A stretch of 64,000 bases of DNA from assembly GCA_945901405.1 (NCBI GenBank), contig CAMDLH010000006.1:1-64000 (forward strand), in the 5' to 3' direction. The translations under genes were made by a program, and so were the position numbers. Below are positions 1 to 15,983 of this stretch, piece after piece (the stretch's first letter is position 1; each line of letters opens with the position of its first letter). The notes under the pieces are model-generated. The model saw nothing but the letters and a program-made list of their open reading frames with translations. It searched no databases and had not been told where the DNA came from. The DNA is from Bordetella parapertussis (GTDB lineage Bacteria; Pseudomonadota; Gammaproteobacteria; Burkholderiales; SG8-41).

Positions 1-117
1 AACCAGAGACTCCCCCAAAGGGTTCGTTTGTTCAAGTTCTCTGCGGGGGATCCCCCCCTTCCCATTACGATACTTGACAAAAAAGACGTAATTTCCCACT
101 AAGATCGCTGACCATAC

Positions 118-300
118 TCACTTGAAGGATGCATCGCCGATGCCGCCCAGTGCCAGGACGTTGAGCAGGATCAGTATCAGGAACGCCATCAATACATCGA
201 GGCTCCATAACGCGCCGGCTTTCGACGCTGCCGCGCGCCGCCGCAGAAGCAGCTCATTCACACTCACCCCGGTCATCACACTCATCGCGCTCATCGGCAT
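118..300 (-). CDS. hypothetical small single-pass membrane peptide (60 aa)
   Basis: ORF overlaps the pilin stop by 10 nt on the same strand. Basic segment (LLLRRRAAASK) followed by a hydrophobic helix (ALWSLDVLMAFLILILLNVLALGG). No recognised family. Confidence 0.35.
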   Translation of the reverse strand: MPMSAMSVMTGVSVNELLLRRRAAASKAGALWSLDVLMAFLILILLNVLALGGIGDASFK

Positions 301-791
301 GCCCCCGGTAAGTATTTGTTTTCTATAAGTTTTTCACCCATCTTGCCGATGGCATCATAACCATTGGGAAAACGCCCGTTGTGACAAACCCAGATCAAGG
401 CACCGGTGGGGTACGCACGATTGACGCCGGGGCGCAGATAAAGGCTGCGCGATTCGGTCTTGCTCGATTCGGTGACGACTTGTACCTCGATGACGCCATT
501 GGTCACGCGTATCGAACGCACGACATGGCCGCGATACGCATCCGCCGGTGCCAGCCCCGCCGACGCGTTGTCCGCGGGAAATCCGCCCCAGCGGTCGTAA
601 AAGTCGCTGATCGCTTTTTGCGCCGGCCCGGCCAGTGAAAACGCTTCGGCCAGCCGCGAGCGCACCGTGTAGTCCTGATAGCTGGGGATTGCAACCGCGG
701 CCAGTATGCCGATGATGGCCACCACCAGCATAAGCTCGATCAGGGTGAAGCCGTTTTTCTTCACGCGTAACGAAGTGTATTTGTTGCTCAT
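291..791 (-). CDS. type IV pilin (PilA/PilE-like)
   Basis: Prepilin signature KKNGFTLIELMLVVAIIGILAAVAIPSYQDYTVRSR and C-terminal Cys pair (WVCHNG...YLPGACR). Start trimmed to ATG at 791, 4 nt after the upstream stop. Confidence 0.9.
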   Translation of the reverse strand: MSNKYTSLRVKKNGFTLIELMLVVAIIGILAAVAIPSYQDYTVRSRLAEAFSLAGPAQKAISDFYDRWGGFPADNASAGLAPADAYRGHVVRSIRVTNGVIEVQVVTESSKTESRSLYLRPGVNRAYPTGALIWVCHNGRFPNGYDAIGKMGEKLIENKYLPGACR

Positions 792-795
792 CACT

Positions 796-3700
796 TTACC
801 TTCCCTTCCCTTGCGGCGCGGCCGCGGGCGTGCGCTTGAATGGCGCGAGTGCTTCATCGGCCCAGTTCATCCAGTGTGTATCCGCCTTGGCACCATTGTT
901 ACCCTTCGCGCCCCGAGCCTTGGCTTCCAGCGAATTTAGACGTTCGGCGCGCTTATCCATCAGGACGAGCGCGCCGGAATCATCGATGCGCGCGCCGCCC
1001 AACACCTCGACCATCGGCGCAACCCAATCGGGCGGCGCGCCGCTAAAGCCAAGGCCAAGCCGCCACAAGCGCAGATTGCCATCCGCCGCCCCCGTCGCAA
1101 CCCAGTCGTGCCCGCCAATAGCCGCAACGCCGCTGACATCATAGTCGTGGCGCAACGGGTCGGCAACCAGTTGGCCGCTGCGGATGTCCCACACACGCAC
1201 CGCGCGATCGCGCGCGCTGGTGGTCAGCCAGCGGCCATCGGCGCTGAATTCGATGCGCGTGACGAGCGCGTTGTGCTTCATCGGTGCACCCACCGGATTC
1301 AAACTATCGCGCGACCACACCTGCACGAAGCCGTCGATCCCGCTTGATGCGAAGCGCGCGCCATCGCGGCTGTAACGCACGGTCCACACCAGGTTGCGCG
1401 CGCCGCGGCTTGCGTCCGGTGTTTTTCGCTCCTGGCGCGCGCGATTGCCGCGCTCCAGTTTCCACAACGCCATGTCCCGTCCGCTCGCTGCGATGACTTC
1501 GTTCGAATCGGGGCCGATGCTCACCGAGGTCACATCCGCCGCGTGCTGCAAGCGCGTGAGCAGCGCGCCCGTGGGGGCATCCCAGATGCGCACTTCCGCG
1601 CCCGATGCGGTCGCCACGATGCGCCCGTCGCGCGAGAGTTCCGCTTCCACCACCGGCGCACCGTGGCGCATCGCCAGACCGCGCGGCGCCGATTGCCGCA
1701 CCGACCACAAGCGCGCGCTGTGATCCTCCGCGGTGGTAAGCAGCCATTCTCCGTCGCCGCTGAATCGCACGCTGCGCAGCGCGCCGCGGTGGCGCAGCGG
1801 CTTGCCCGCCGCCGCGCCGCTCGCGGCAACCCACACACGCGCCGTGCCGTCGCCGGAACCCGTCGCCAGATGCGTGCCCGATGCACTGAAGGCGAGGCTC
1901 GTCACCGCCTCCGCATGCGCCGCGAATTGCCGCTCAAGCACCACCGGCGCCGCACCCGGCGTCGCCGTCGTATTTACTTTCCACAGCCGCACTTCGCCGC
2001 GCGCCGTGGCGCTTGCGATGCGCGAGCCGTCCGCGCTGGCCGCGAGTGCCGTCACGGCCGCGCCGTGATCGAATGCTAGGCGCGTGTTGCGCAGATGATT
2101 AGGCTGCCACAGGTGCAGCCTGCCGTCGTCGGAAATCGTCGCCACGCGCTTGCCGCCGGGGCTGAATTCCGCCGCCAGCACCGATGAATCGTGCAGCATG
2201 GGTTCCTCCATCTGCTCGCCCGCCACGCTGAAGATGCGCGCCGTGCCATCGAGCGAAGCCGTAAGCACATGGCGCTTGTCGGGGCTGAAACGCGCCGCCA
2301 CCACCGGGCCGTCGTGCATCAGCGGGGGCGCCACGATGGAGGTCGATTCGGCATGCCACACGCGCGCGGCCTGATCCTGGCAGGCGGTCAACACATGTTC
2401 ATCGTCGGCGCTGAATGACACGCTGTTCACCGGCGCAATATGCGTGAGCGCCTTGCCGTGCGGCGCACCGGTGCGCGCATCATGCAGGCGCACGGTCGCG
2501 CCCGATACCGCCACCAGCCAGCGTCCGCCGGGACTGAACGAGGCACGCCCGGCAAATGCCGCGCCGCGCGCGATTTTCTGTGTCCAGCGTGCATCCCCTG
2601 AACGCGCGTCATACAGCGTTGCGCCGCCATCGGCGAACCACGCCAGCAGGCCGGCCGCATCGGGCGAAAATTCGAGCGCCGTGAGCAACTGCGTTTCGGC
2701 AAACTTGATTTTGAGCGAATCAGGAGACTCGCCCGCAACGACCGCGATTTCGTGATTCGACAATTGATAGGCAAACAGGCGGCCGGCAACATTGACGGCC
2801 TGGATACCGTTTACGTCACGTCTGCCGAATGTCTTCAGTGCGTCCAGGGATTTTGCATCGAAGACCACATTCTCGCCTTTGCGTGACCGCAGTATCGTAC
2901 GCGATTGCGCATCAAAACGCAGGTTGTTGTCCGGCCTGTCCTTGGCCGTCAAACCCATGGATAGCGCGGGGGTGCGGCTCGCGGCCAGGCGCTTCAAGTC
3001 AGGACTGTCCGCCAGTTTCCAAACACGATACGGGTCGCCGGCCAGCACGAGGCGATCGCCGAGCATCAACCGGTTGTCGTCGAGCCATGCGATCTCCGGG
3101 CGCACCAACTGCTCCGGCAACGGACGCTCCGCCGCATGCAGCGGGTAGCTGCGTTGATTCACCAGCGTCACCACGCGCGCCGCCGCGGCTTCGTTATTCG
3201 GGTTCAGGCGCATGGCCTTGGCAAGATAGGCTTGCGGGTCGCGCGGCGTGCGGTTCTCCAGGCTGATATTGGCTTGTGTCACCAGCACGTTCGATTGAGT
3301 CTCGACCACGCGATTTTTTTCCACCACGGCGCGTTGCATGAGCACCGCCATTACCACCGCCAACCCCAGCACCGCCACCCCGGCCGCGACGCCGATACCG
3401 ATGATGCGCCGCGTGCGCCGCCGCCGCTCGCGATCCTGCGCGAGGCGCTGCGCTTCGGCCTCGCGCGCCTGACGCTGATCGCGGCTGTCGCGCACCACGC
3501 GCGTCAACACATCGTGCGTGAGCTCGATGCGCAGCACGCCGAAGCGTTCATCCAGTCGCAACAGGCGCCGCGCCACCAAGGCGTCGATCGCTTCCTGCGT
3601 CACCCCCGGCAAGCGCCGCGCGTCTTCCAGCGCGTAGCTGTCGCGGTAGCCCGCCTCGGTGAGCAACTGGTCTTCAACGAACACGCGCATGCCGGGGTCA

Positions 3701-4725
3701 AGATCGGCCACGCTGCGCTCGTAAAAATTGGAGATGATTTCCTGCTGCGCGCCGGCTTCAAGCAAATCGCCGGTGATCTGCTCGCGGCCGGCGGCGATGC
3801 GCTTGTTGTTCAACTCGCGGCATACCAGGCTTAGCAACGCGGGTTCGATTTCCTGATAGATGCTGGTTTGTTCCGCGCCGTCAACCTCACCCTCGCCAGC
3901 ACCACCGCGCGGCCCCGCGACGAAACCGATGATGCGCCCGGCCACGCCGGAGGCGATCAAGTGTCCGCCCGATTGCGTGATGGCTTCCAGCGCCTGCGTG
4001 CCGTTCATGCGGGTGAGGCGCATGCGGTTTTGCATGATCGAACGGATGACGCGGCGCAGGCCCTCGAAGTCGGGCAAAAAGTCTTCGCGGAATGCGAGCA
4101 GCACCTTGCAATTGCGCTTGCCGAAATCCAGCTTTGCCGCCGCATCGGGATTTTCTTCGAGCCGCCGTTCGACCGCCGCGGGCGTGCGGTTCTCGATCAA
4201 ATCGCCCAGCTCGGTGATGAACGTGCGGCAGCGCAGCCGCATCTCGTCGCTGTGGCGCCCGAGGGTGAAAATTTCCTCGAATTGATCGAGCACCAGCACC
4301 GGGGTCAGCAGCCGGTTGCGCGCGCTCCAGAAATCAAGCTCCGAGTCGTGAAAATATTCCCACAGCGTTTCGTCCTCGCGCGGCGCGCGTGCATCGACGC
4401 CGTGATCGCGCAGATTTTGCGCGAGTATGGTCTTGACCTGCGCGCCGAACGCGGGCGCATCGGGCGAGACTTCAAGCCGGATGTAGACCGGCAAAAAATC
4501 CTCGCGCCGCAGACGCGGAAACAGGCCCGCGCTCAACAGCGAGGATTTGCCCAGGCCCGACTGACCGAAGAGCACGGTGAGCAGCTCGCGCTTGATAAGG
4601 CGCAGCAACTCCGCGGCCTCGGTGTCGCGGCCGTGAAAATACGCCTGAATTTCCTCGGTGAAAGGAACCAGCCCCGGCCACGGGTGCTCGGCGTTGACGC
4701 CCTGAAATCCGCCCGGCGCGCTCAT
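796..4725 (-). CDS. nSTAND1-type NTPase with internal TM segment and C-terminal WD40 repeats
   Basis: Walker A GQSGLGKSSLLSAGLFPRLR, Walker B VLVLDQFEEIFTL, TM IIGIGVAAGVAVLGLAVVMAVLM after a basic stretch, then many WD40 repeats (e.g. SVSFSADDEHVLTACQDQAARVWHA). Confidence 0.9.
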   Translation of the reverse strand: MSAPGGFQGVNAEHPWPGLVPFTEEIQAYFHGRDTEAAELLRLIKRELLTVLFGQSGLGKSSLLSAGLFPRLRREDFLPVYIRLEVSPDAPAFGAQVKTILAQNLRDHGVDARAPREDETLWEYFHDSELDFWSARNRLLTPVLVLDQFEEIFTLGRHSDEMRLRCRTFITELGDLIENRTPAAVERRLEENPDAAAKLDFGKRNCKVLLAFREDFLPDFEGLRRVIRSIMQNRMRLTRMNGTQALEAITQSGGHLIASGVAGRIIGFVAGPRGGAGEGEVDGAEQTSIYQEIEPALLSLVCRELNNKRIAAGREQITGDLLEAGAQQEIISNFYERSVADLDPGMRVFVEDQLLTEAGYRDSYALEDARRLPGVTQEAIDALVARRLLRLDERFGVLRIELTHDVLTRVVRDSRDQRQAREAEAQRLAQDRERRRRTRRIIGIGVAAGVAVLGLAVVMAVLMQRAVVEKNRVVETQSNVLVTQANISLENRTPRDPQAYLAKAMRLNPNNEAAAARVVTLVNQRSYPLHAAERPLPEQLVRPEIAWLDDNRLMLGDRLVLAGDPYRVWKLADSPDLKRLAASRTPALSMGLTAKDRPDNNLRFDAQSRTILRSRKGENVVFDAKSLDALKTFGRRDVNGIQAVNVAGRLFAYQLSNHEIAVVAGESPDSLKIKFAETQLLTALEFSPDAAGLLAWFADGGATLYDARSGDARWTQKIARGAAFAGRASFSPGGRWLVAVSGATVRLHDARTGAPHGKALTHIAPVNSVSFSADDEHVLTACQDQAARVWHAESTSIVAPPLMHDGPVVAARFSPDKRHVLTASLDGTARIFSVAGEQMEEPMLHDSSVLAAEFSPGGKRVATISDDGRLHLWQPNHLRNTRLAFDHGAAVTALAASADGSRIASATARGEVRLWKVNTTATPGAAPVVLERQFAAHAEAVTSLAFSASGTHLATGSGDGTARVWVAASGAAAGKPLRHRGALRSVRFSGDGEWLLTTAEDHSARLWSVRQSAPRGLAMRHGAPVVEAELSRDGRIVATASGAEVRIWDAPTGALLTRLQHAADVTSVSIGPDSNEVIAASGRDMALWKLERGNRARQERKTPDASRGARNLVWTVRYSRDGARFASSGIDGFVQVWSRDSLNPVGAPMKHNALVTRIEFSADGRWLTTSARDRAVRVWDIRSGQLVADPLRHDYDVSGVAAIGGHDWVATGAADGNLRLWRLGLGFSGAPPDWVAPMVEVLGGARIDDSGALVLMDKRAERLNSLEAKARGAKGNNGAKADTHWMNWADEALAPFKRTPAAAPQGKGR

Positions 4726-6122
4726 GCGTGGCCGCGCTCGCGTTTGCGGTAATCGCGCACGATCTTCACCATGCGCGATTCAAATTCGGCGGTGACTGCC
4801 CCCGCTGGCAGGCGCGTCCACTGCGCCTGGCGAAAGCGCTCCGGCACGGTTTCGGAATACTCGTTGGTGTCGTCGATCACCACCGGCAGGATGAACGGTA
4901 CGGTATCGGCGATGCCCAGCGAACGCTCGATGGCGAGATTCCACTCGCGGCGGAAGTAGCCCTCGAGCCGGCGCTCGGTGTTGCGCGAAATCACCGGTAT
5001 GAACAGCGAGCAACCCTTGATATGACGCTTGATCTTGGCATCATACTGGTCGCCCGCTTCGAGCCTGTCCTTATCGAACCATACGTCTAGGCCCAGCTCG
5101 CCCAGCGATGTTTGCAGGCTTTGAACAGCCTCCAGATCTTCCTTGGCATAGCTCACGAAGATGGCGCCGGGCGGTGCGTCGTCTGACTCGCCCTCGGCTG
5201 GCGCGGCAACCGCGGGCGCCGCGGCGGCAGGCTGTTCAGGATGGCGCTTCACCCAGCGCGCGTAAAGCTCATCGACGAACGCGGCGCCGCGCGCCGGAAA
5301 CAGCTTGGTGCTGTAACTGAAACTTTGCAAAAACATCACCAAGTTGGCATCGTGGCTTGCGTGTTCGTCCACCAGTATTTCGGTTTCGCTGCGTTGCATG
5401 GAAAGCTGGCGGCTCTTGGCGATGCGAATAAAAAACCGCGCCAGCCAATCCTGAAACGTGCAGCCGATAATCAGCAGATGGTTGTTTTGCAATTCATCGA
5501 ACAACAAGTGCGGGCGCTTCGACTCGGCTTGCAGCGCATGCAAAAACTCCAGCGTGTCTTCCTCGGTGATCACATAATCGGGCGCCGCCGACACCTTGCC
5601 GAGCAGGCCGTAGACCAGTGGGCGCGTGAGTTTTTTGCGCTCACACGGCAAATCCTGTGACTTGTTCGGCGCGAAAGCGAGGTGCTCGGCCTGTGCCACG
5701 CTGTTCAAGCGCGCCGCGCTGATGGCGTCGGCGAGCAACGTATCAAACGTGAGGCTCACGTAAAGATCGAAGTTGCGTATGCGCGCGAGCTTCAGCAATG
5801 CTTCGGGCGGTGCGACCTGCACTTCCTTCATGATGTTGCGGATTTTCGGATACAGTTCCTCGCGCCGGCCGCGTCCTTGCAGGTAACGGCACACCACGCT
5901 GTTGAGCGTGACCTCGCCGCCCTCCCCCTCCGCCGGCGGCAAACGCAGACGCTCGGCCAGCCGCTCGGCGACGTGTGTGTAGAGATTGACCTGCCTGCCA
6001 TCGATGATGACATCAAGCATGTCGGGCCCGATGATGGGAATGACGCGCTTGTCCTCGATGCATTCGAGCAGATCGTCCCAGAAATCCTCGTCGTCCATAT
6101 CCGGTGTCATGGCCGCGGTCAT
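4722..6122 (-). CDS. SIR2-like (degenerate) plus C-terminal TIR domain protein
   Basis: C-terminal TIR: AIFVSYAKEDLEAVQSLQTSLGELGLDVWFDKDRLEAGDQYDAKIKRHIKGCSLFIPVIS...YFRREWNLA. N-terminal SIR2-like pattern: VIPIIGPDMLDV...YVSLTFDTLLADAI...LLIIGCTFQDWLARFFIR. ATGA overlaps with both neighbours. Confidence 0.85.
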   Translation of the reverse strand: MTAAMTPDMDDEDFWDDLLECIEDKRVIPIIGPDMLDVIIDGRQVNLYTHVAERLAERLRLPPAEGEGGEVTLNSVVCRYLQGRGRREELYPKIRNIMKEVQVAPPEALLKLARIRNFDLYVSLTFDTLLADAISAARLNSVAQAEHLAFAPNKSQDLPCERKKLTRPLVYGLLGKVSAAPDYVITEEDTLEFLHALQAESKRPHLLFDELQNNHLLIIGCTFQDWLARFFIRIAKSRQLSMQRSETEILVDEHASHDANLVMFLQSFSYSTKLFPARGAAFVDELYARWVKRHPEQPAAAAPAVAAPAEGESDDAPPGAIFVSYAKEDLEAVQSLQTSLGELGLDVWFDKDRLEAGDQYDAKIKRHIKGCSLFIPVISRNTERRLEGYFRREWNLAIERSLGIADTVPFILPVVIDDTNEYSETVPERFRQAQWTRLPAGAVTAEFESRMVKIVRDYRKRERGHA

Positions 6123-7945
6123 GGTGTGAGCAGCTTGATGAGTTCGTCGCGATTGCGCGGCGGTTTGCCCGTGCCGCCAAGCTGGTCGTTGAAATAATCA
6201 AGCGCGGTCTTGCCGCCGGCCTCGGATTTATCTCTTGCGTACTTGCGCGCCCCGCTCTTGATCAATGCCGGCGCCGCGTCCCATCTGCGCTCGATGACAG
6301 CCGCGTGCAGCGGCGTACGGCCAGAGCTGTCGGGCGCATTGACGTCAGCGCCCTTGGCCACCAGGAACTCAATCACGGCGGGTTTGCGCGCATGGTGCAA
6401 CGGTGTCGCGCCACCGTGCATAGTCACATTGACGCTGCCGCTGCTGTTTATAAGTTGTTGTATTAATTCAGTTTTTTCGCCAGCCGCTGCGGCGTGCATG
6501 AGAGTTTCGCCGTTCGCCGTGCGTGCCTCGTAACCGCCCGCGCGCGCGATCCATTCGCCGAAAAGTTTTACGTCGCCGCCGCGCGCCAGCGCGTGCGCGA
6601 GCGTCGCGCCCCGGCTGTTTTGCACATCCGCCCGCGCGCCGCGCGCCGCCAGTAGATCCATGGCGCGGCGTTTGTGTTCATACGGCTTGCTGGATTGCGC
6701 CACGATCATCAACGGCGTGTTGCCAGAGTTGTCCGCCTGATTCGCATCGGCCTTGGCGTCAAGGTACAAAGTTAGCGCCGCCAGCGATTCACGCGCGGCG
6801 GCCGCGACGTCGGGCATGCCGCCGTCACCCACATCGTCGAGCGGCGCGCCTGCCGCGCGCAGCGTTTCGAATAACCGCTCGTTGCTGAATGCCGCGTCTA
6901 GCAACGCGCCAGGATCGATATGCGCGCCGTGCGCGATCAGCATTTGCATGATCTCGACACGGCGCTCTACTTCGCCAACCGAGTAGTACGACACGGCGGA
7001 CATGTTGTTGGCGGACGCCGGAGTCTTGCGCCCCCAGATCGCGATCTGCACGAGGTTCGCTTCCATCTCGCGCAGATTGCCCGCGCGCCCGATCACCTCG
7101 CGCACCACGGCGGGCGCGCCCGACTTGACGCCATTCACCAGCAATTCACTTTGTGCTGCCGGCGCGGCCGCGCTGGGTTTGAGCAGGAAAAGGCGCTGCA
7201 GAGGACCGCTCAGGTAGGCTGATCCCGTATTCGCGGGGTCGGCAACAAACTTGATCGATATCAACAACACCGTCACCAGGACGCCCACGCACAGAAACAC
7301 GAGCAACATGCGCAGCACGGTACGCGCGATGTTCTTGAGGCGGCGCGTCCAGGTGAGTGGCGCGGCCGGCGCCACGGCAGGACGCAAACGCGCGAGTGCT
7401 GTCTCGAATGCAAGCGCATCCGCCGGCGCATAGCGCCAGTTGCCGTGCGCCCCCGTAATGCGATAGTTATTCAGCACGCTAAGGCTATTCGCGGCAAATG
7501 TTTTTCGGTCGATTTGGAGAATCTCGCCCCATTGCAAACTCACGGTTCGGCCCATGCGCCGCGTGAGCCGCATGCCGCTGGCGCCGGTCTCCACATGGCT
7601 TATACCGCGCGACCACCACCACACCCAGTGGCCGAGTATCAACACCAGAGCCACCCCCAGCCATTCGCTAAACGCGTCTTCGGCGAAGCGCCCAAGTTCG
7701 GGCACGAAGCCGCCAATAAACGACAATGCGGAAGGAAGGGTGCTAATCAGCAAGGCCGGCGCCGCAATCGCCGCCATCACGCTGACCAGAATCCAGCTAT
7801 ACAGCGCGGCGCAAAACACCGCTGCGTCCTTCCATCCCGCGGGGAAAGGCCGGCTATCGAAGTGGATATCGTAACAGCCGCCCGCTGCCTCGCCAGCCGA
7901 GGCCGCCGGAGTAGACTGCGCAACAAGAAACGAGGCCGGCTGCAT
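6119..7945 (-). CDS. membrane-anchored ankyrin-repeat protein
   Basis: N-terminal hydrophobic segments (e.g. WILVSVMAAIAAPALLIS, LVFLCVGVLVTVLLISI), then ankyrin repeats (NSGNTPLMIVAQ, NGETLMHAAAAGEKTELIQQLIN, GGATPLHHA, SGRTPLHAAVIERRW). Confidence 0.85.
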   Translation of the reverse strand: MQPASFLVAQSTPAASAGEAAGGCYDIHFDSRPFPAGWKDAAVFCAALYSWILVSVMAAIAAPALLISTLPSALSFIGGFVPELGRFAEDAFSEWLGVALVLILGHWVWWWSRGISHVETGASGMRLTRRMGRTVSLQWGEILQIDRKTFAANSLSVLNNYRITGAHGNWRYAPADALAFETALARLRPAVAPAAPLTWTRRLKNIARTVLRMLLVFLCVGVLVTVLLISIKFVADPANTGSAYLSGPLQRLFLLKPSAAAPAAQSELLVNGVKSGAPAVVREVIGRAGNLREMEANLVQIAIWGRKTPASANNMSAVSYYSVGEVERRVEIMQMLIAHGAHIDPGALLDAAFSNERLFETLRAAGAPLDDVGDGGMPDVAAAARESLAALTLYLDAKADANQADNSGNTPLMIVAQSSKPYEHKRRAMDLLAARGARADVQNSRGATLAHALARGGDVKLFGEWIARAGGYEARTANGETLMHAAAAGEKTELIQQLINSSGSVNVTMHGGATPLHHARKPAVIEFLVAKGADVNAPDSSGRTPLHAAVIERRWDAAPALIKSGARKYARDKSEAGGKTALDYFNDQLGGTGKPPRNRDELIKLLTP

Positions 7946-8004
7946 GATTTTGTCGTTGGAATGCCGTGTCGAATGATCGCGAACTCATTATACTTTGAAG
8001 CCAC

Positions 8005-9906
8005 ATGAACACGCCCGCCGATCTGGATTCTTTGTTGCGCACCTGGGAAGAGCGCGACCCCGCGGCATGGCGCGGCGACGCCAATCGTTATATCGATCTC
8101 GGCCGGCAGGCAATTTCGCTCGGCCAATACGTGATCGCGGCGGATATTCTGGGTGAGGCGCTGAGCGCGTTTCCGGACGACGCCACGATACTTTACTACT
8201 CGGCCCTGGCGCTCGCCCGCAGCGGCGCACGAGGGCTTGCCATGCAACACGTCGGGCGCCTGCTGGCGCGCACCGGCCTCGATCCAAAGGTGCGCGGCGA
8301 GGCGCTGAGTCTCGCCGGGCGCATCGCCAAGGATCGCATGGCCGCACTCGAAGACGCCCCGGAGGGCAGGCAGGCCGCCGCCCAGGCGCGCGGCTACTAC
8401 CTTGAAGCGTGGCGTCAAACCGGAGATTTTTTCCCAGGCATCAACGCCGCGACGCTAAGCCTGATGATGGGTGAAACAGCGGACGCGCGGCGCATCGCGG
8501 GCGAAGTCGTGGCGCTGTGCGTGGATACGCCGAACGCGGATCATTGGCTGCACGCAACCCTGGGCGAAGCATCCGTGCTGCTCGGCGAACGCGACGAGGC
8601 CGTGCGCTGGTATACGAAAGCGCGCGACCAGGCCGGCAAGCGCTATGGCGATCTTGCCAGCATGCGGCGGCAATTGCGCCTGCTGGCGCCGCATACACAC
8701 CTTGCGCGCGACATGCTCGGCGTATTGCACATTCCGCGCGTGGCGTTGTTTACCGGCCACATGATCGACGCGCCCGGCCGCGCGCAACCGCGTTTCCCCG
8801 CGCACCTTGAAGCGGCGGCGCAAGCAGCCATCGCAAACACGCTGGATCAGGTGGATATCGGCTTCGCTTATTGTTCGGCGGCATGCGGCGCTGACATTCT
8901 GTTCATTGAACAGGCGCTGGCGCGAAACATCGAAGTCACCGTAGTGCTGCCCTTCGGCCGCGAGGATTTCATACGCACCAGCGTACAGCATGCAGGCGCG
9001 GACTGGGTCACGCGGTTTGATGACGTGCTGTCACGCGCCGCCACGGTGACGGTGTGCGTGGACGAAGGTTATCTTGGCGACAACGTACTGTTTGGTTTTG
9101 CCGCGTACCTCACACAGGGGCTCACGCTGCTGCGCGCGCGCCAGCTCGAGACCGAAGCCGTGCTGATCGCCGTCGCCGAACCAGACCCGGCGCCCGCGAA
9201 AGGCGGCACATGGTCCAACGTGCTCGACTGGCGCGCACTGGGCCTGGCGGAACACGTCGTCGATCTACGTGACTTGCGCTCCAAAACGCCGCCGCCGCGT
9301 GGCGGCGGCACGATGCAACCAACCGCTGAAGTACGACCCGAAGCGCACGGCAAGTCGTGGGGCAAGCGCCAGATCAAAACCATGCTGTTCGCGGACGTGG
9401 TGGGATTCAGCAAACTCATGGAAGCGAGCGCGCCTGCGTTTTATTTCGATTTTCTGGGCCGCGTCGCACAGGAAATCGAAGCCTCGGCGGTGGCACCCAT
9501 CGCGAGCAATACCTGGGGCGATGGTCTATTCATTGTTTACGACGACGCGGCGCCCGCGGTTGAATTCGCCCTGCGCCTGCGCGACACGATCACGCGCACT
9601 GATTGGCGCGCGATGGGCTTGCCGCAACTCACCGCGCGCATCGCCATGCATACCGGCCCGGTGTTTCAGGCGTTCGACCCGGTGATTAAGGGCATCAACC
9701 ATTTCGGCTCGCACGTCACGCGCGCCGCGCGCATCGAGCCGGTGACAGCACCCGGCAGCGTCTATGTCACCGAGCAAACCGCCGCGATGCTGAAGGTAGA
9801 TGGCAATCAGGATTTCGCCTGCGATTATTTGGGCAAGATCACGCTCGCCAAGGCCTATGGCGCGACCGTGCTCTATCGCGTGCGGCGCGCGGCGGAGGAT
9901 GAGTAG
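8005..9906 (+). CDS. TPR/TRAFs-binding-like plus SLOG-like plus class III adenylate/guanylate cyclase homology domain protein
   Basis: N-terminal TPR-like helices; central Rossmann-like segment RVALFTGHMI...CSAACGADILFIEQALARNIEVTVVLPF; C-terminal cyclase motifs KTMLFADVVGFSKLM, NTWGDGLFIVY, YVTEQTAAML. Confidence 0.85.
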   Translation: MNTPADLDSLLRTWEERDPAAWRGDANRYIDLGRQAISLGQYVIAADILGEALSAFPDDATILYYSALALARSGARGLAMQHVGRLLARTGLDPKVRGEALSLAGRIAKDRMAALEDAPEGRQAAAQARGYYLEAWRQTGDFFPGINAATLSLMMGETADARRIAGEVVALCVDTPNADHWLHATLGEASVLLGERDEAVRWYTKARDQAGKRYGDLASMRRQLRLLAPHTHLARDMLGVLHIPRVALFTGHMIDAPGRAQPRFPAHLEAAAQAAIANTLDQVDIGFAYCSAACGADILFIEQALARNIEVTVVLPFGREDFIRTSVQHAGADWVTRFDDVLSRAATVTVCVDEGYLGDNVLFGFAAYLTQGLTLLRARQLETEAVLIAVAEPDPAPAKGGTWSNVLDWRALGLAEHVVDLRDLRSKTPPPRGGGTMQPTAEVRPEAHGKSWGKRQIKTMLFADVVGFSKLMEASAPAFYFDFLGRVAQEIEASAVAPIASNTWGDGLFIVYDDAAPAVEFALRLRDTITRTDWRAMGLPQLTARIAMHTGPVFQAFDPVIKGINHFGSHVTRAARIEPVTAPGSVYVTEQTAAMLKVDGNQDFACDYLGKITLAKAYGATVLYRVRRAAEDE

Positions 9907-10065
9907 GCGGCTTGCGGGTGGTGGGCGCGGCGTAATGGCGAAAACCACTGAGCCGCAGCTTGGCTTTGAAAATCGGGCGAGCCAACTATAAGCGCAGCAA
10001 ACCATCTTTTATGTGCGCCCGCCATGCGCCATTGACTTACCACCATCCGCTGAATAAACTATCCC

Positions 10066-10380
10066 TTGGTCTTTATCGAAACCTCTCAATTCAGCAAATT
10101 GCTGGGGCAATACCTGAATGATGATGCCTATCGCGGCCTGCAAAACCATTTGATGGCGCAGCCCGATGCTGGAGCCATCATTCGAGAGTCCGGCGGCGTG
10201 CGCAAGGTTCGTTGGGGTGCGGGCAACAAAGGCAAGTCGGGCGGCGTGCGAGTGATTTATTACTGGATAACGGCTAAAGCGCAAATTGTGATGCTCACGA
10301 TGTATGCCAAGGGCGAGCAAGAGACCCTTAGCGCAGCACAGCTAAAGCGCATCGTGAAACTGCTTGAGGGACTCAAATGA
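10066..10380 (+). CDS. type II TA RelE/HigB-like toxin
   Basis: VFIETSQFSKLLGQYLNDDAYRGLQNHLMAQPDAG...GVRVIYYWITAKAQIVMLTMYAKGEQETLS; overlaps the antitoxin ORF by 4 bp; TTG start. Confidence 0.75.
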   Translation: MVFIETSQFSKLLGQYLNDDAYRGLQNHLMAQPDAGAIIRESGGVRKVRWGAGNKGKSGGVRVIYYWITAKAQIVMLTMYAKGEQETLSAAQLKRIVKLLEGLK

Positions 10381-10730
10381 AAAAACGCAATATCGGCAAT
10401 GAAATTATTGAAGGCTTGGAAGAATTCAAGTCGTGGCAGCAGGGCAAAGTCAAACTCAAAACCCACAAGGTTGAAATGCCGACGGCCTCGGATGTGCCTG
10501 CCATACGCAAAGAACTGGGACTGTCGCAGACCGAATTCGCCGGATTCATGGGCGTGAGTGTAGGCACACTGCGAAATTGGGAACAAGCGCGGCGCGAACC
10601 GCACGGGCCAGCGCGTGCGCTTTTGCTGGTAGCTTCAAAGCAGCCCGCTGCGGTGCGCGCGGCCTTCCGCGCTTCACTACCTGTTACTCGCGTGACCACC
10701 CTCACCGGGCGACTGCAAAAAGCAGCATAG
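10377..10730 (+). CDS. HTH antitoxin (NadS/HigA-like)
   Basis: HTH IRKELGLSQTEFAGFMGVSVGTLRNWEQARREPHGPARALL; paired with upstream RelE-like ORF. Confidence 0.8.
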   Translation: MKKRNIGNEIIEGLEEFKSWQQGKVKLKTHKVEMPTASDVPAIRKELGLSQTEFAGFMGVSVGTLRNWEQARREPHGPARALLLVASKQPAAVRAAFRASLPVTRVTTLTGRLQKAA

Positions 10731-10746
10731 CAACGCGGTAACAACG

Positions 10747-11037
10747 ATGCGCACCAAACTGAAAATGACACGCGGCAGCGGCAATGTGTTTCAGGACGTG
10801 GGGTTCTCACCCGGCGAAGCAAACAACCTGATGCTGCGCGCGCAACTCATGACGCGCGTGCGTGACGCCGCCCGTGGCGCATCGCAGCGCGAAGCAGCCA
10901 AGCGCTTCGGCATCAATCAGCCGCGCCTTAACGATGTGTTGCGCGGCAGGATCGACAAATTCAGTCTCGATGCGCTGGTAAACATGCTGGCGCATGCGGG
11001 CATGCGCGTGGAACTGCGCGTAAAGAAAGCTGCGTAG
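10747..11037 (+). CDS. XRE-family HTH protein (solitary antitoxin-like)
   Basis: GFSPGEANNLMLRAQLMTRVRDAARGASQREAAKRFGINQPRLNDVLRGRIDKFSLDALVNMLAHAGM; resembles HigA-type HTH antitoxins; no toxin immediately adjacent. Confidence 0.65.
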   Translation: MRTKLKMTRGSGNVFQDVGFSPGEANNLMLRAQLMTRVRDAARGASQREAAKRFGINQPRLNDVLRGRIDKFSLDALVNMLAHAGMRVELRVKKAA

Positions 11038-11171
11038 CAAATCGCTTGCAAGGCGACACGCCACTGATGCGGCGCGAAGGCGATACAGAGTGCCGCACCA
11101 GTGATTACCGAGTGGGCGCACCCGGCGTAGCGTGGTGGACTCACCGTATCCCATAATATACAATACGCACA

Positions 11172-11468
11172 TTGAACACGATTCAAACCACGGAGACGTT
11201 TGACGCCTGGTTCAAAGGTTTGCGCGACCGAAAAGCGAAGGCGCGCATTCAGGTGCGCATCGACCGCGCGGAAGAAGGAAATTTCGGCGACTGCGAACCG
11301 GTGGGCAAGGGCGTATCCGAAATGCGCATTCACCAAGGCGCGGGGTATCGGGTGTATTGGAAACGCCATGGACGTGAATGGGTGGTTCTGCTGGCCGGCG
11401 GCAACAAGGCCACACAGCAGGCCGATATTAAAACCGCGCTGCGGCTGGCGCGCGAACTGGAGCGTTGA
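11172..11468 (+). CDS. type II TA RelE/ParE family toxin (addiction-module killer)
   Basis: TFDAWFKGLRDRKAKARIQVRIDRAEEGNFGDCEPVGKGVSEMRIHQGAGYRVYWKRHGREWVVLLAGGNKATQQADIKTA. Confidence 0.85.
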   Translation: MNTIQTTETFDAWFKGLRDRKAKARIQVRIDRAEEGNFGDCEPVGKGVSEMRIHQGAGYRVYWKRHGREWVVLLAGGNKATQQADIKTALRLARELER

Positions 11469-11770
11469 ACATGGGAAAACTCAAACTGCGCAAGTGGGAT
11501 AGCGCCGAGCACCTGAACAGCGATGAGGATATCGCGCTGTATCTGGACGCCTGTTTAGCGGAAGCGGGTGACGACCCCGCCTTCATCGCCAAGGCGCTGG
11601 GCAACATCGCGCGTGCGCGCGGCATGAGCCAGCTTGCGCGTGAAACCGGATTGGGACGCGAAAGCCTCTACAAAGCACTTTCCGGCGAAGGCAATCCGAG
11701 CTTTGCAACCATCCTCAAAGTGATACATGCGCTGGGCGTGAAGCTGCACGCGGAAACCGCGCAGGCGTAG
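11465..11770 (+). CDS. addiction-module antidote protein (HTH)
   Basis: DEDIALYLDACLAEAGDDPAFIAKALGNIARARGMSQLARETGLGRESLYKALSGEGNPSFATILKVIHALGVKL; overlaps toxin by 4 bp. Confidence 0.85.
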   Translation: MNMGKLKLRKWDSAEHLNSDEDIALYLDACLAEAGDDPAFIAKALGNIARARGMSQLARETGLGRESLYKALSGEGNPSFATILKVIHALGVKLHAETAQA

Positions 11771-11855
11771 TAGCCTGCGCCTGTTGCGGAATACCTGCCC
11801 TGTGAAGCTCGCGTAGCGCAAACGTAAAGCGCCGGACTAGGCCGACGGGCCGAAC

Positions 11856-11923
11856 GGCGGGACACCTTCACCCGCCTGTCTGGTGCCTCCCAACTCGAAG
11901 GCTGCACGGGAAGGTGTGCGATA
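11856..11923 (+). promoter_or_regulatory. candidate 5' UTR pseudoknot sequestering the Shine-Dalgarno of the 11923 ORF
   Basis: Hairpin GGCGGG(11856-61)/CCCGCC(11871-76). Loop ACACCTT(11862-68) is complementary to AAGGTGT(11911-17), which overlaps the SD-like GGGAAGG 8 nt upstream of ATG 11923. Confidence 0.35.
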
Positions 11924-12351
11924 TGAAAAAACCTGACTGGAATGTTTGGGGCGCCAAGGAACAAGTGGCCGTGTGGCAAGCGCCCCTACTATCACTCGAC
12001 AGAGACCCTGACAGAATAAATTTTGAGAGCATCAACTGGTTTGGTTTGCTGAATCACCCATCAGATTCGCCACCAAACGACAACCTGCCGCCTGAAATCG
12101 ACGATGCCTTCAAAAAGCGTCTTGGGTTGCTGTGGAAAGCATTGCACAGCAGTACGAAGTATTTCTCAGATGATGGGGAGTGGGGGAATACAGAGTTAGA
12201 GGATGACGTGCGTTTGCATGAATTCGCAGCCTGGTGCGAACTGTCGAAACTTGACGTGCCGGACCCACTTGCCGAGATTGGCAAAGCCTATGGCGGTGCG
12301 GCCCGACTGCATGCAAGATACGAAAGAACGCACGCAAGGCAGCATCCATAA
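11923..12351 (+). CDS. hypothetical protein
   Basis: ORF MKKPDWNVWGAKEQVAVWQAPLLSLDRDPDRINF... with SD-like GGGAAGG upstream (track start GTG at 11914 also possible). Confidence 0.6.
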   Translation: MKKPDWNVWGAKEQVAVWQAPLLSLDRDPDRINFESINWFGLLNHPSDSPPNDNLPPEIDDAFKKRLGLLWKALHSSTKYFSDDGEWGNTELEDDVRLHEFAAWCELSKLDVPDPLAEIGKAYGGAARLHARYERTHARQHP

Positions 12352-12362
12352 AGGCCGCCACC

Positions 12363-13007
12363 GTGGACGATGCAAAGGCGAATACGCTGACCGTGACCGA
12401 AGATAAACGCATTACCGCTGAATTAGCGCTATCGCCCATCGTGGGGAATGCAAACACGTCCCGCATTTTCGCAGCAGGCAGTTTGGCAGCCGTTGACTGG
12501 GGTGAGACCATCAATGTGATGCGCGAAATGGCAGACAAGGTATGTGCCGGCGACCTGACAGACGCGGAAACCACATTGATAGCGCAGGCCGTTGCGCTGG
12601 ATTCGATATTCACCGAACTGGCACGGCGCGCCGCTGCGAACATGGGGCAATACCTGGATGCTACGGAAACCTATTTGCGGCTGGCATTCAAAGCGCAAAG
12701 CCAGTGCCGCGCAACCTTGGAAACCTTGGCGGAAATCAAAAACCCGCGCGCGGTGGCGTTTGTGAAACAGGCGAATATTGCAAACGGGCCGCAGCAAATA
12801 AATAACGGCGTGCCGTCCGCAAATGAACCTCTCGCGCACGGAAATTCCACAATTCAATCAATCGAACTATCAGGGGCGGGCCATGAGTTACCACCGGACA
12901 CCGGAACACCGGCGCTTGCGGGCACAGTTGATTCGCAATTGGAAACCGTGGCAGCAATCAACCGGGCCACGAACAAAAACCGGCAAAGCCAAAAGCGCGG
13001 GCAATAG
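12363..13007 (+). CDS. hypothetical protein
   Basis: 214-aa ORF, GTG start, directly downstream of the previous ORF. Confidence 0.55.
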   Translation: MDDAKANTLTVTEDKRITAELALSPIVGNANTSRIFAAGSLAAVDWGETINVMREMADKVCAGDLTDAETTLIAQAVALDSIFTELARRAAANMGQYLDATETYLRLAFKAQSQCRATLETLAEIKNPRAVAFVKQANIANGPQQINNGVPSANEPLAHGNSTIQSIELSGAGHELPPDTGTPALAGTVDSQLETVAAINRATNKNRQSQKRGQ

Positions 13008-13089
13008 CTGGAAGCACGGCAACCGCTCGCGTTCGGCGCTTGAGGCATTGCGCACGCTTGGCGCGCTGTTGCGACAGTTGCGTGATTAA
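12883..13089 (+). CDS. hypothetical small basic protein overlapping the upstream ORF in another frame
   Basis: MSYHRTPEHRRLRAQLIRNWKPWQQSTGPRTKTGKAKSAGNSWKHGNRS; the 'TGPRT..GK' pattern resembles short conserved hypotheticals. Confidence 0.4.
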   Translation: MSYHRTPEHRRLRAQLIRNWKPWQQSTGPRTKTGKAKSAGNSWKHGNRSRSALEALRTLGALLRQLRD

Positions 13090-13180
13090 GCCGTGGCGCA
13101 GTGCGGGAATAGCCATCGCGATAAACGCTGAACACAACAGTATCGCACCATCGGCAAGTATTCCGTGAGCGCACAAAGTA

Positions 13181-13204
13181 AACCCCGCCGAAGCGGGGCT
13201 ATCT
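13181..13204 (-). terminator. Rho-independent terminator for the 13219-13662 gene
   Basis: Minus strand AGCCCCGC-TTCG-GCGGGGTTTACTTT. Confidence 0.6.
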
Positions 13205-13218
13205 GACGTGCAAAACTC

Positions 13219-13662
13219 CTATTTTTTTGCAGCAGCCGGTTGCGCTGCATCCTTCAAGACAACGACGTAAACCACAAATTCTGTCTTGCCTGTGTTCTTC
13301 GTCGTATAGGCCGGCCCCGGCACTTGGATTTCCACGTCTCCGGTCTTCCACTCTTTTGTCTCTGTCTTGCCATCGGGGTAAGTTCTTAAAATCGTCCCTC
13401 CTTGTAAAGCCCGAACAGCGCGGGTGGCAGTTGAACTGGGAGTATTCACTTCACCGGGTTTTTGTCGAAGCTCGAACACAATCATTTTGTCATTTTCAGC
13501 TATGGTTTTTCGCGTTGCCTTGGCTTCCTGCGCTTTTGCCGCAGGCGCGGCTTTTGCGTCCTTCCCTTTATCCTGCGCCGGCGCGACACCCATCATACCG
13601 AAGCATGTGAATGCCGCCAGTGATGCCCCAACAAACAAACGTGTCGATTGTTTCATGGTCAT
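13219..13662 (-). CDS. secreted cupin-like hypothetical protein
   Basis: Signal peptide (STRLFVGASLAAFTCFGMMGVAPAQ) and cupin-like segment (FELRQKPGEVNTPSSTATRAVRALQGGTILRTYPDGKTE...VEIQVPGPAYTTKNTGKTEFVVYVVVLK). Confidence 0.55.
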   Translation of the reverse strand: MTMKQSTRLFVGASLAAFTCFGMMGVAPAQDKGKDAKAAPAAKAQEAKATRKTIAENDKMIVFELRQKPGEVNTPSSTATRAVRALQGGTILRTYPDGKTETKEWKTGDVEIQVPGPAYTTKNTGKTEFVVYVVVLKDAAQPAAAKK

Positions 13663-13887
13663 TCCTCCACTTTACGGAAAACCGCGCATACAAGCTGCCG
13701 TGGCAGTGCGCCGGGGTACGCGGTATTCGCCCGGCGCGAGGAATAATATACGCCCGCCATCGCAGCTTCACGAATGCAAAATGCAATCTGCGCCACAACC
13801 AGCAACAGATAATCCTACACAGCGCCTACACGAACCCTGAAATAAAAAATGAGCTACACATACAAACGCATAAGTCATTGATTTCTT

Positions 13888-13963
13888 TGGTGCCGCTGGT
13901 CCGACTCGAACGGACGACCTGACGCTTACGAAGCGCCTGCTCTACCAACTGAGCTACAGCGGC
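13888..13963 (-). tRNA. tRNA-Thr(CGT), CCA encoded
   Basis: Reverse complement GCCGCTGTAGCTCAGTTGGTAGAGCAGGCGCTTCGTAAGCGTCAGGTCGTCCGTTCGAGTCGGACCAGCGGCACCA folds as a cloverleaf; anticodon loop TTCGTAA. Confidence 0.95.
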
Positions 13964-14009
13964 GGCGGGGATTACTAAGGACTACCAGAAGGCGCGCATT
14001 TTAGCACGG

Positions 14010-15983
14010 CTAACCCAAAGAAGAGTTTGCTTCGCCGAGCGGGCCGATGGCTTTACGCACTTGCGGTGACGTTGTGCTCAAACGAATTGGGCAGCGCAGC
14101 AGCGGCCAGGCGCGCCCCGCCGAGTCGGTAGCCTGCGTGATCAGCGCGCGCGCCGTGGTCTGCGCATGTTCGGCGGCTTCCTTGACCGATTGCACGGGGA
14201 CGCTGGCGATGCCCTGGACCTGCAACAGGGCCACGGCGCCGGCGCGCGTGAGGTTTTGCGTTTTAACGCTTGACGTTGCTGCTGCCGCGACGATGTAGCC
14301 GTCGCTGCATTGCAAAGTAACGTAATTTTCACGAGGAAACGGCGCGCGCCACGCCCACTGCGTGACCCACGCGCCCGCATCCTGCATAGCGATGTCGATA
14401 TGTTCGGCGCCACTGCCAGTATCGCGCGCATAAAGCGCACTTAACGTACCGGTCAGCGCGAACAGGCCGCCAAGTATATCCGCAAGCGAGATGCCCGCCT
14501 TTTGCGGCACGCCGTTGGAACGTATCAAATCCATGATGCCGCACATCGCCTGCACCACGGTGTCGAACGCGGGCCGGCCGGGATACGCTGAATCCGCGCC
14601 GTAGCCGGAGATCGCGCAGTAGACGAGACCAGGGTTTGATTTTCGTAGATCAGAGGAACTTAACCCCAACCGCGCGAGCGAGCCGGGTTTTAGATTTTCG
14701 ACCAGCACGTCGGCCTTAGCGAGCAACGCATCGAACGTGGCGCGATCCTTGCCGTCGCGCAGATCGAGCCGCAGGCTGCGTTTGTCGGCATTGCTCAGGG
14801 TGAAGAAATAACCCTGCCCGTCCTGCTGCGGCGGCCACGCGCGCGAGGCGTCGCCTTCTGGCGATTCTATTTTGAGCACCTCGGCGCCCAGCGCACCGAG
14901 TTGACGCGCGACAAACGGCGCGGTGGTGAACTGGCCAATTTCAAGTACGCTGCGGCCCGCGAGCGGCATGGCTGCATGATCGGTCGTCACCGCAGACGAT
15001 TTGTGCTGGTCACCGCGCGGCATGAATTTCACCGCCGAAGGCAACACCGCATCACGCAGCATGCGCCGGTGCATGATGTTTTCCTGCGTGGGCAGATCGT
15101 GCGCGGCGACGATGGGGCCGGCGGCGATGCCTTGCGCCGCTAGCGCCTGCGCGCACTCGGCTGCCGATCTTCCAGCAACCCACTGCGCTACAGCGCCATC
15201 CACTTCATCGCGCCGCGCCACGCGTTCGGGCACGGTGTTCAAGCCCGCATCCGCAGCGAGATCGGCGCGCGCCATCACGGTGCACAGTTTGCGCCATTGA
15301 TCGTTGGTGCCGGTGCAAACGAGCAACCAGCCGTCCTGCGCCTTGTAGGCGTTCCAAGGCGCCGCGAGCACATGTTTGTTGCCGGAGCGCGTGACCGGCT
15401 TGCCAATAAAGTGAAACGGCAAAAAAGTGGTCAGGGTGGAGAACGCGCAGTCATAGAGCGCGATCTCCACATCCTGCCCCTTTGTTCCGCGCGCGCGCGC
15501 GATGAGCGCGGCGACCACGCCTGCTGCCGCGTAAAGTCCGGCTACGCCTTCGGCCACTGGAAAGCCGGTGAACACCGGCGGCGCATCGGGTTCGCCCGTG
15601 GTATCGGCAAGCCCGGTCAACGCCTGAATGAACGCGTCTGCATGCGCGACACCCGCGAGCGGCCCGCTGCCGCCGAACGCGGTGATGTCGCACACGATTT
15701 GATGTGTAGGCCGCGTGTACTTTGGGATGACTTCAATATCGCTGGACGCGATGACCACATCGGCGGACGCGAGCAGCGCCGATAGCCCGCCATCCACGCG
15801 CACCAGCGTCTTGCCATGCGACACGATTGCGCGGTCAATCCATTTGTTGCCGTTCGCCGCCGCCGGCTCGATCATCGTCACGCGCGCGCCCAGCGCCGCG
15901 AGCACCGTGCCGCATGCACCCGCGGCGATGCGCTCGCCGATTTCGACTACGTTTATTCCGGCAAGCGGTTTTGACTCCATCAT
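14010..15983 (-). CDS. fused two-domain CaiB/BaiF (class III) CoA-transferase
   Basis: Two CaiB-like modules: 'LAGINVVEIGERIAAGACGTVLAALGARVTMIEP' and 'LAGRSVLEIGQFTTAPFVARQLGALGAEVLKIESPEGDASRAWPP...ADKRSLRLDLRDGKD'. Confidence 0.85.
   Translation of the reverse strand: MMESKPLAGINVVEIGERIAAGACGTVLAALGARVTMIEPAAANGNKWIDRAIVSHGKTLVRVDGGLSALLASADVVIASSDIEVIPKYTRPTHQIVCDITAFGGSGPLAGVAHADAFIQALTGLADTTGEPDAPPVFTGFPVAEGVAGLYAAAGVVAALIARARGTKGQDVEIALYDCAFSTLTTFLPFHFIGKPVTRSGNKHVLAAPWNAYKAQDGWLLVCTGTNDQWRKLCTVMARADLAADAGLNTVPERVARRDEVDGAVAQWVAGRSAAECAQALAAQGIAAGPIVAAHDLPTQENIMHRRMLRDAVLPSAVKFMPRGDQHKSSAVTTDHAAMPLAGRSVLEIGQFTTAPFVARQLGALGAEVLKIESPEGDASRAWPPQQDGQGYFFTLSNADKRSLRLDLRDGKDRATFDALLAKADVLVENLKPGSLARLGLSSSDLRKSNPGLVYCAISGYGADSAYPGRPAFDTVVQAMCGIMDLIRSNGVPQKAGISLADILGGLFALTGTLSALYARDTGSGAEHIDIAMQDAGAWVTQWAWRAPFPRENYVTLQCSDGYIVAAAATSSVKTQNLTRAGAVALLQVQGIASVPVQSVKEAAEHAQTTARALITQATDSAGRAWPLLRCPIRLSTTSPQVRKAIGPLGEANSSLG

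Follow-up and report, generated by a model that had tools for sequence, protein, structure and literature searches.

A TPR-S-SLOG protein with a class III nucleotidyl cyclase domain and a non-canonical base pocket, encoded beside SIR2-TIR and nSTAND1 genes

Anti-phage second-messenger systems are sorted by the base of their signal. In class III nucleotidyl cyclases the base-selecting pair is Lys with Asp or Thr in canonical adenylyl cyclases and Glu with Cys in canonical guanylyl cyclases; the second position of the pair is Asp in canonical adenylyl cyclases and Thr in class IIIb. The closest described defence systems are Pycsar, in which the cyclase PycC is accompanied by PycTIR or PycTM, and Thoeris, which comprises the TIR protein ThsB and the SIR2-SLOG protein ThsA. 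The SLOG domain of ThsA is reported to be activated by cADPR isomers made by TIR proteins (PMC11204291).

Here, a 64,000-nucleotide stretch of DNA (the window) was analysed, in which a 633-aa protein combines TPR-S, SLOG and class III cyclase domains. The locus shares with Pycsar a single class III cyclase, an immune-type setting and a nearby TIR protein, and one relative lies beside a PycTM gene. It differs in that the cyclase is unmatched by PycC models and the TIR domain shares its protein with a SIR2-like domain rather than with one that binds cyclic nucleotides. As in Thoeris, TIR, SIR2-like and SLOG domains occur within one locus; however, TIR is fused to SIR2 and SLOG to the cyclase, an nSTAND1-WD40 gene is additionally present, and the SIR2-like domain looks degenerate. 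Identity with Thoeris was rejected, since the neighbour does contain a TIR_2 domain but no ThsA-type SIR2-SLOG fusion was found, SLOG being carried by the cyclase and SIR2 by the TIR protein.

Compared with class III adenylyl and guanylyl cyclases (Rv1264, Rv1900c, CyaB and Cya2), the window cyclase has the same fold, two metal-binding Asp residues and catalytic Arg, and it resembles Rv1900c and Ma1120 in missing the transition-state Asn. It departs from them by Asn in place of Lys/Glu, Asn in place of Asp/Thr/Cys, the Trp of TWGD, and the fusion to SLOG and TPR-S. Among TPR-S proteins (PF20308), it scores above the curated cut-off and has cyclase-less relatives with the same TPR-S and SLOG domains, whereas the window protein adds a C-terminal class III cyclase. 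The system may work like Pycsar or Thoeris. On balance, we consider it somewhat probable from the sequence data that the 633-aa protein acts as a regulated synthase of a second messenger, with an evolving base pocket, in a bacterial conflict module that is probably directed against phages.

Domain architecture of the 633-aa protein

The gene and its three domains are located as follows.

8005..9906, plus strand: open frame for the 633-aa protein with TPR-S, SLOG and class III cyclase domains
8137..8460, plus strand: TPR-S (Tetratricopeptide Repeats-Sensor) domain, residues 45-152 (Pfam PF20308, E 3.7e-15)
8731..9279, plus strand: predicted SLOG-fold domain, residues ~243-425, with a GxD signature (G295, D297; Foldseek)
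9340..9903, plus strand: class III nucleotidyl cyclase domain with a non-canonical base pocket (N502, N565) and T572 (PF00211, Foldseek, motif alignment)

The AlphaFold model of the whole protein had a mean pLDDT of 87, and 14 full-length relatives aligned with it from end to end. The TPR-S domain scored 56.8 bits with the Pfam model against a curated cut-off of 27.6, which places it in the family, and the region was all-helical in the AlphaFold model. The middle domain matched no Pfam family in any of the 14 members, and a PDB sequence search with its profile returned zero matches. Modelled in isolation, it reached a pLDDT of 91 and gave YpsA (2nx2, E 7.6e-8, TM 0.61/0.67) as the top Foldseek match, with DprA and TRPM2 also among the matches. 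In the predicted structure, residues ~243-425 form a YpsA-like SLOG fold that is recognised by structure only. Moreover, G295 and D297 (G295-A-D297) were invariant in the 14 full-length members and fit the GxD/E signature of the YpsA clade, which is predicted to be nucleotide-binding; in conflict systems, SLOG domains are predicted to sense or process nucleotides (PMC6459960).

A class III cyclase domain at the C-terminal end of the frame, as proposed in the preliminary description, was borne out by both profile and fold: Pfam Guanylate_cyc (PF00211) matched residues 459-615 (E 9.5e-13), and the cyclase part of the model matched CyaB (E 3.6e-9), Rv1264, Rv1900c, Ma1120 and Cya2 in a Foldseek search of the PDB. 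No NCBIfam model covered the window cyclase, and the combination of TPR-S, SLOG and class III cyclase had no entry in curated Pfam, NCBIfam or PADLOC, although an earlier mention in the literature is possible.

The domains also occur in other arrangements. TPR-S and SLOG were common to five cyclase-less relatives (L015, L016, L018, L019 and L026), and a sister group carried the cyclase ahead of TPR-S and had no SLOG domain; here TPR-S was called by Pfam in L029 and is suggested by sequence likeness in L063-L067. In addition, a cyclase of the same lineage (NTWGD) was fused to a NUDIX hydrolase domain on a Rhizobium beringeri plasmid (L028, 5983-7056). The cyclase-less proteins, the SLOG-less cyclases and the NUDIX fusion together indicate that cyclases of this clade are combined with sensor domains in various ways. 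A Tolypothrix plasmid (L030, 5860-6306) carried a truncated remnant of a lineage cyclase, its C-terminal half only, with a TIR-WD40 gene directly downstream of it. Phage records contained no homologue of the cyclase domain.

Active-site residues and pocket switching

Six active-site positions were assigned in the window cyclase.

9394..9396, plus strand: metal-binding Asp D464 (LFADVVGFS), invariant in 43/43 relatives
9508..9510, plus strand: Asn N502 (SNTWGD) at the canonical Lys position (motif alignment)
9520..9522, plus strand: metal-binding Asp D506 (SNTWGD), invariant in 43/43 relatives
9697..9699, plus strand: Asn N565 (GINHFG) at the canonical adenine-Asp position, Asp in 0/43 relatives
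9718..9720, plus strand: Thr T572 (HVTRAAR) at the transition-state Asn position (motif alignment)
9730..9732, plus strand: transition-state Arg R576 (HVTRAAR), invariant in 43/43 relatives

The preliminary description had read two intact metal-binding Asp residues, Asn in place of Lys before TxGD and Thr in place of the transition-state Asn from the motifs, and all of these (D464, D506, N502 and T572) lie where it put them. In the alignment that checked the register, nine canonical class III cyclases, drawn from the host genome and other genomes, showed Lys (Arg in one), then Thr, Asp or Ala, then Asn and Arg in the same columns; because these controls align in register, the motif calls are not offset. 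The second base-selecting position, also Asn (N565), had been missed. Thus, the two metal-binding Asp residues and the transition-state Arg of a class III cyclase were present (D464, D506 and R576) and the transition-state Asn was absent (T572), while N502 and N565 matched neither the canonical adenylyl pair (Lys with Asp or Thr) nor the canonical guanylyl pair (Glu with Cys); nine relatives do carry Glu.

The comparison was extended to 43 distinct relatives with complete motifs, found in genome collections, on plasmids and by searching whole genomes. Most of them come from metagenome-assembled genomes, and the residue counts are not phylogenetically independent. The Lys position was N in 30 relatives, E in nine, K in two, and A and D in one each; at the second base-selecting position most relatives had N, T, G or S, and none had Asp; and the transition-state Asn position was S in 13, T in 10, N in eight and V in six, with other residues in the rest. 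Since it is conserved across the 43 relatives, the motif pattern exceeds chance, and judged from these sequences the non-canonical pocket is a rule of the lineage, not a peculiarity of the window gene.

A maximum-likelihood tree was built from 35 relatives and the nine canonical controls with the three variable columns masked. The relatives formed a single clade against the controls (branch support 100/99). Starting from Asn, which looks ancestral at the Lys position, this position changed at least six times on the tree: Glu arose four times independently, and Lys and Asp once each. In each Glu lineage the second position was L, M, I, A or K, never the ancestral Asn, and in the Lys lineage (L006 and L011) it was Ser. 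On this alignment, the base pocket changes in pairs and the catalytic core is frozen. Repeated switching of the pocket beside fixed metal-binding and Arg residues suggests that the product differs between members of the lineage. Read by comparison with known adenylyl and guanylyl cyclases, the Lys/Ser members probably make cAMP and the Glu members probably make cGMP.

For the window enzyme, two suggestions of the preliminary description held in part. Altered base specificity gains support from base-selecting positions that are non-canonical and switch repeatedly while the metal-binding and Arg residues stay fixed, but the Thr for Asn provides no argument: active adenylyl cyclases have Ala (Ma1120; PMC4215837) or His (Rv1900c; PMC4886424) at this position, so the transition-state Asn is not strictly required. 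Likewise, the pocket leaves room for a product other than cAMP, but "not cAMP" is unproven, known adenylyl cyclases also being without the catalytic Asn. At the sequence level, cAMP, cGMP and a pyrimidine product are not discriminated.

The same two adenylyl cyclases lend weight to the alternative that survives best, namely that the enzyme is an ordinary adenylyl cyclase, or a mixed adenylyl/guanylyl one, which makes mainly cAMP despite drift in its pocket and whose TIR context reflects island clustering only. The presence of Rv1900c among the nearest solved folds and the retention of Lys, with Ser, in two lineage members (L006 and L011) fit it as well. However, paired switching of the pocket with the other catalytic residues invariant is not drift, and the TIR association described below greatly exceeds the chance expectation and is seen in more than one phylum. 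We regard this alternative as a possible but minority explanation, and prefer a conflict-module synthase with an evolving pocket.

Conserved neighbours and signalling context

Three genes are transcribed away from the cyclase gene.

796..4725, minus strand: nSTAND1 ATPase and WD40 propeller protein, a conserved neighbour (PF20703 E 1.3e-31, WD40)
4722..6122, minus strand: SIR2-like and TIR protein, a conserved neighbour (PF13289, PF13676)
6119..7945, minus strand: membrane and ankyrin protein, at the head of the divergent operon, membership uncertain (Ankyrin models)

They form an operon in the order membrane-ankyrin, SIR2-TIR and nSTAND1-WD40, with 4-bp overlaps. The membrane-ankyrin gene had no homologue near other cyclases and was not conserved in the relatives. 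In L006, L007, L011 and L012 the SIR2-TIR and nSTAND1 genes lay next to the cyclase and were oriented like it, and nSTAND1 adjoined it in nine relatives (L006, L007, L010, L011, L012, L068, L097, L098 and L099). Overall, a TIR gene lay within 5 kb of the cyclase in 20 of 44 relatives and nSTAND1 in nine of 44, and about half of the relatives lacked TIR/nSTAND1 neighbours in the flanking DNA examined. In 20 complete or draft genomes, eight TIR_2 domains were observed within 5 kb of a cyclase against 0.16 expected (Poisson P ~1e-11), the expectation being based on 54 TIR_2 domains in 79 Mb and L067 not being counted. The L067 cyclase adjoined a ThsB-type TIR (E 1.2e-21), and the TIR/nSTAND1 association recurred in members of a second phylum. 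Additionally, four SLOG-less cyclase-TPR-S members (L029, L063, L064 and L067) neighboured TIR genes too, so the link need not pass through SLOG.

A second SIR2-TIR/nSTAND1-WD40 pair was found on host contig C100 (L070, 1975-9135), adjoining another TIR protein and a transposase; its nSTAND1-WD40 frame is split into two overlapping frames. This pair occurs without a cyclase, which makes the cyclase optional for such pairs.

By inspection, the SIR2-like domain appeared to lack the usual Asn (TFD, not TNxD) and, where it would be expected, the HG-type His in six of six aligned copies (window, L006, L007, L011, L012 and L070), and the TIR glutamate region RREW was conserved in the same six SIR2-TIR copies. 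From these motifs, the SIR2-like domain is possibly a pseudo-NADase. The apparent lack of catalytic Asn and His in this neighbour, the changes at both pocket positions and at the transition-state Asn of the cyclase, and the inactive cyclase domains reported in related conflict systems (PMC7159879) would all suit a catalytically degenerate cyclase that serves as a nucleotide-binding or dimerisation module within a TIR/STAND complex. This we judge quite unlikely, as both metal-binding Asp residues and the Arg were invariant in 43/43 relatives from at least two phyla, which would be unexpected were catalysis lost. An active synthase is the reading we retain.

No cyclic-nucleotide receptor (CNBD or PycTM) was found in the window operon. 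Next to the relatives, the only cNMP-binding domain belonged to an ABC transporter adjoining L051, PycTM adjoined L029 alone, and no general receptor emerged; nor did the neighbouring SIR2-TIR protein give a CNBD match that would make it a Pycsar effector. A PycTM match in Lactococcus (L083) had no recognisable class III cyclase adjoining it. On the Priestia aryabhattai plasmid (L029, 2219-7744), PycTM, two uncharacterised proteins, the cyclase-TPR-S protein and RyR are encoded on the same strand with PycTM upstream of the cyclase, and an MBL-fold hydrolase gene adjoins the run on the other strand. Since the L029 cyclase is unmatched by PycC models, PycTM here seems to be paired with a non-PycC cyclase.

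The Pycsar analogy of the preliminary description does not extend to membership: the PADLOC PycC models gave zero matches to the window cyclase at E<=1. With the same library, a genuine PycC (L116), which adjoins PycTM in another genome, scored 2.3e-156. Hence a PycC variant producing cCMP or cUMP is very doubtful, even with the Priestia sister cyclase in one gene run with PycTM (PADLOC E 1.7e-29) and altered pocket residues in PycC enzymes as well (PMC11224242), given that the PycC structures 7R65 and 6YII were absent from the PDB profile search at E<=0.1 while canonical cyclases reached 1e-16 and that the window holds no CNBD-TIR or PycTM effector.

Possible mode of action and flanking DNA

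The pocket is typical of its own branch and the genes lie repeatedly beside bacterial immune-type genes; for these reasons, the product of the enzyme is probably an alarm molecule. In the regulated synthase that we favour, the cyclase would stay inactive until it receives a signal from a partner. This signal might be contact of TPR-S with the nSTAND1/TIR partner and/or binding to the SLOG domain of an ADP-ribose-type nucleotide supplied by the adjacent TIR protein. Because the ThsA SLOG domain is reported to respond to cADPR isomers from TIR proteins, the neighbouring SIR2-TIR protein is a plausible source of such a ligand. Two cyclase domains would then pair head to tail and convert NTP into a cyclic mononucleotide.

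A more elaborate version, a hybrid of Thoeris-like and Pycsar-like signalling, seems unlikely on present sequence comparisons. In it, infection would act through TIR/nSTAND1 to yield an NAD-derived product read by SLOG, and the cyclase would relay a second cyclic mononucleotide, with the base diversified by Asn/Asn, Glu/aliphatic and Lys/Ser pocket switching and the Asn/Asn product being neither cAMP nor cGMP.

The regulated synthase would add to the defence catalogue of PADLOC 2.0.0 a cyclase branch now absent from it, in which the catalytic core is kept and the base-selecting pair is swapped repeatedly. The clade is accompanied by genes for TIR, SIR2-like and nSTAND1 proteins in two phyla or more, and it would supply a natural series (N/N in the window, N/G in L002, E/L in L008 and K/S in L011) for the determinants of cyclic nucleotide identity.

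Further along the window, a tRNA-Thr (13888-13963) lies between a lower-GC conflict-gene region (10-14 kb, GC 0.54-0.58) and a housekeeping acyl-CoA metabolism cluster, which suggests that the conflict-gene region is a genomic island adjoining a tRNA; no direct repeat of the tRNA end flanking the island was seen in window 1-15500. Directly downstream of the cyclase, window 10066-11770 contains two small toxin-antitoxin-type cassettes, one pairing a RelE-like with an HTH gene and the other a Gp49/HigB-like gene with an HI1420-type antidote, and in addition an HTH_37 gene.
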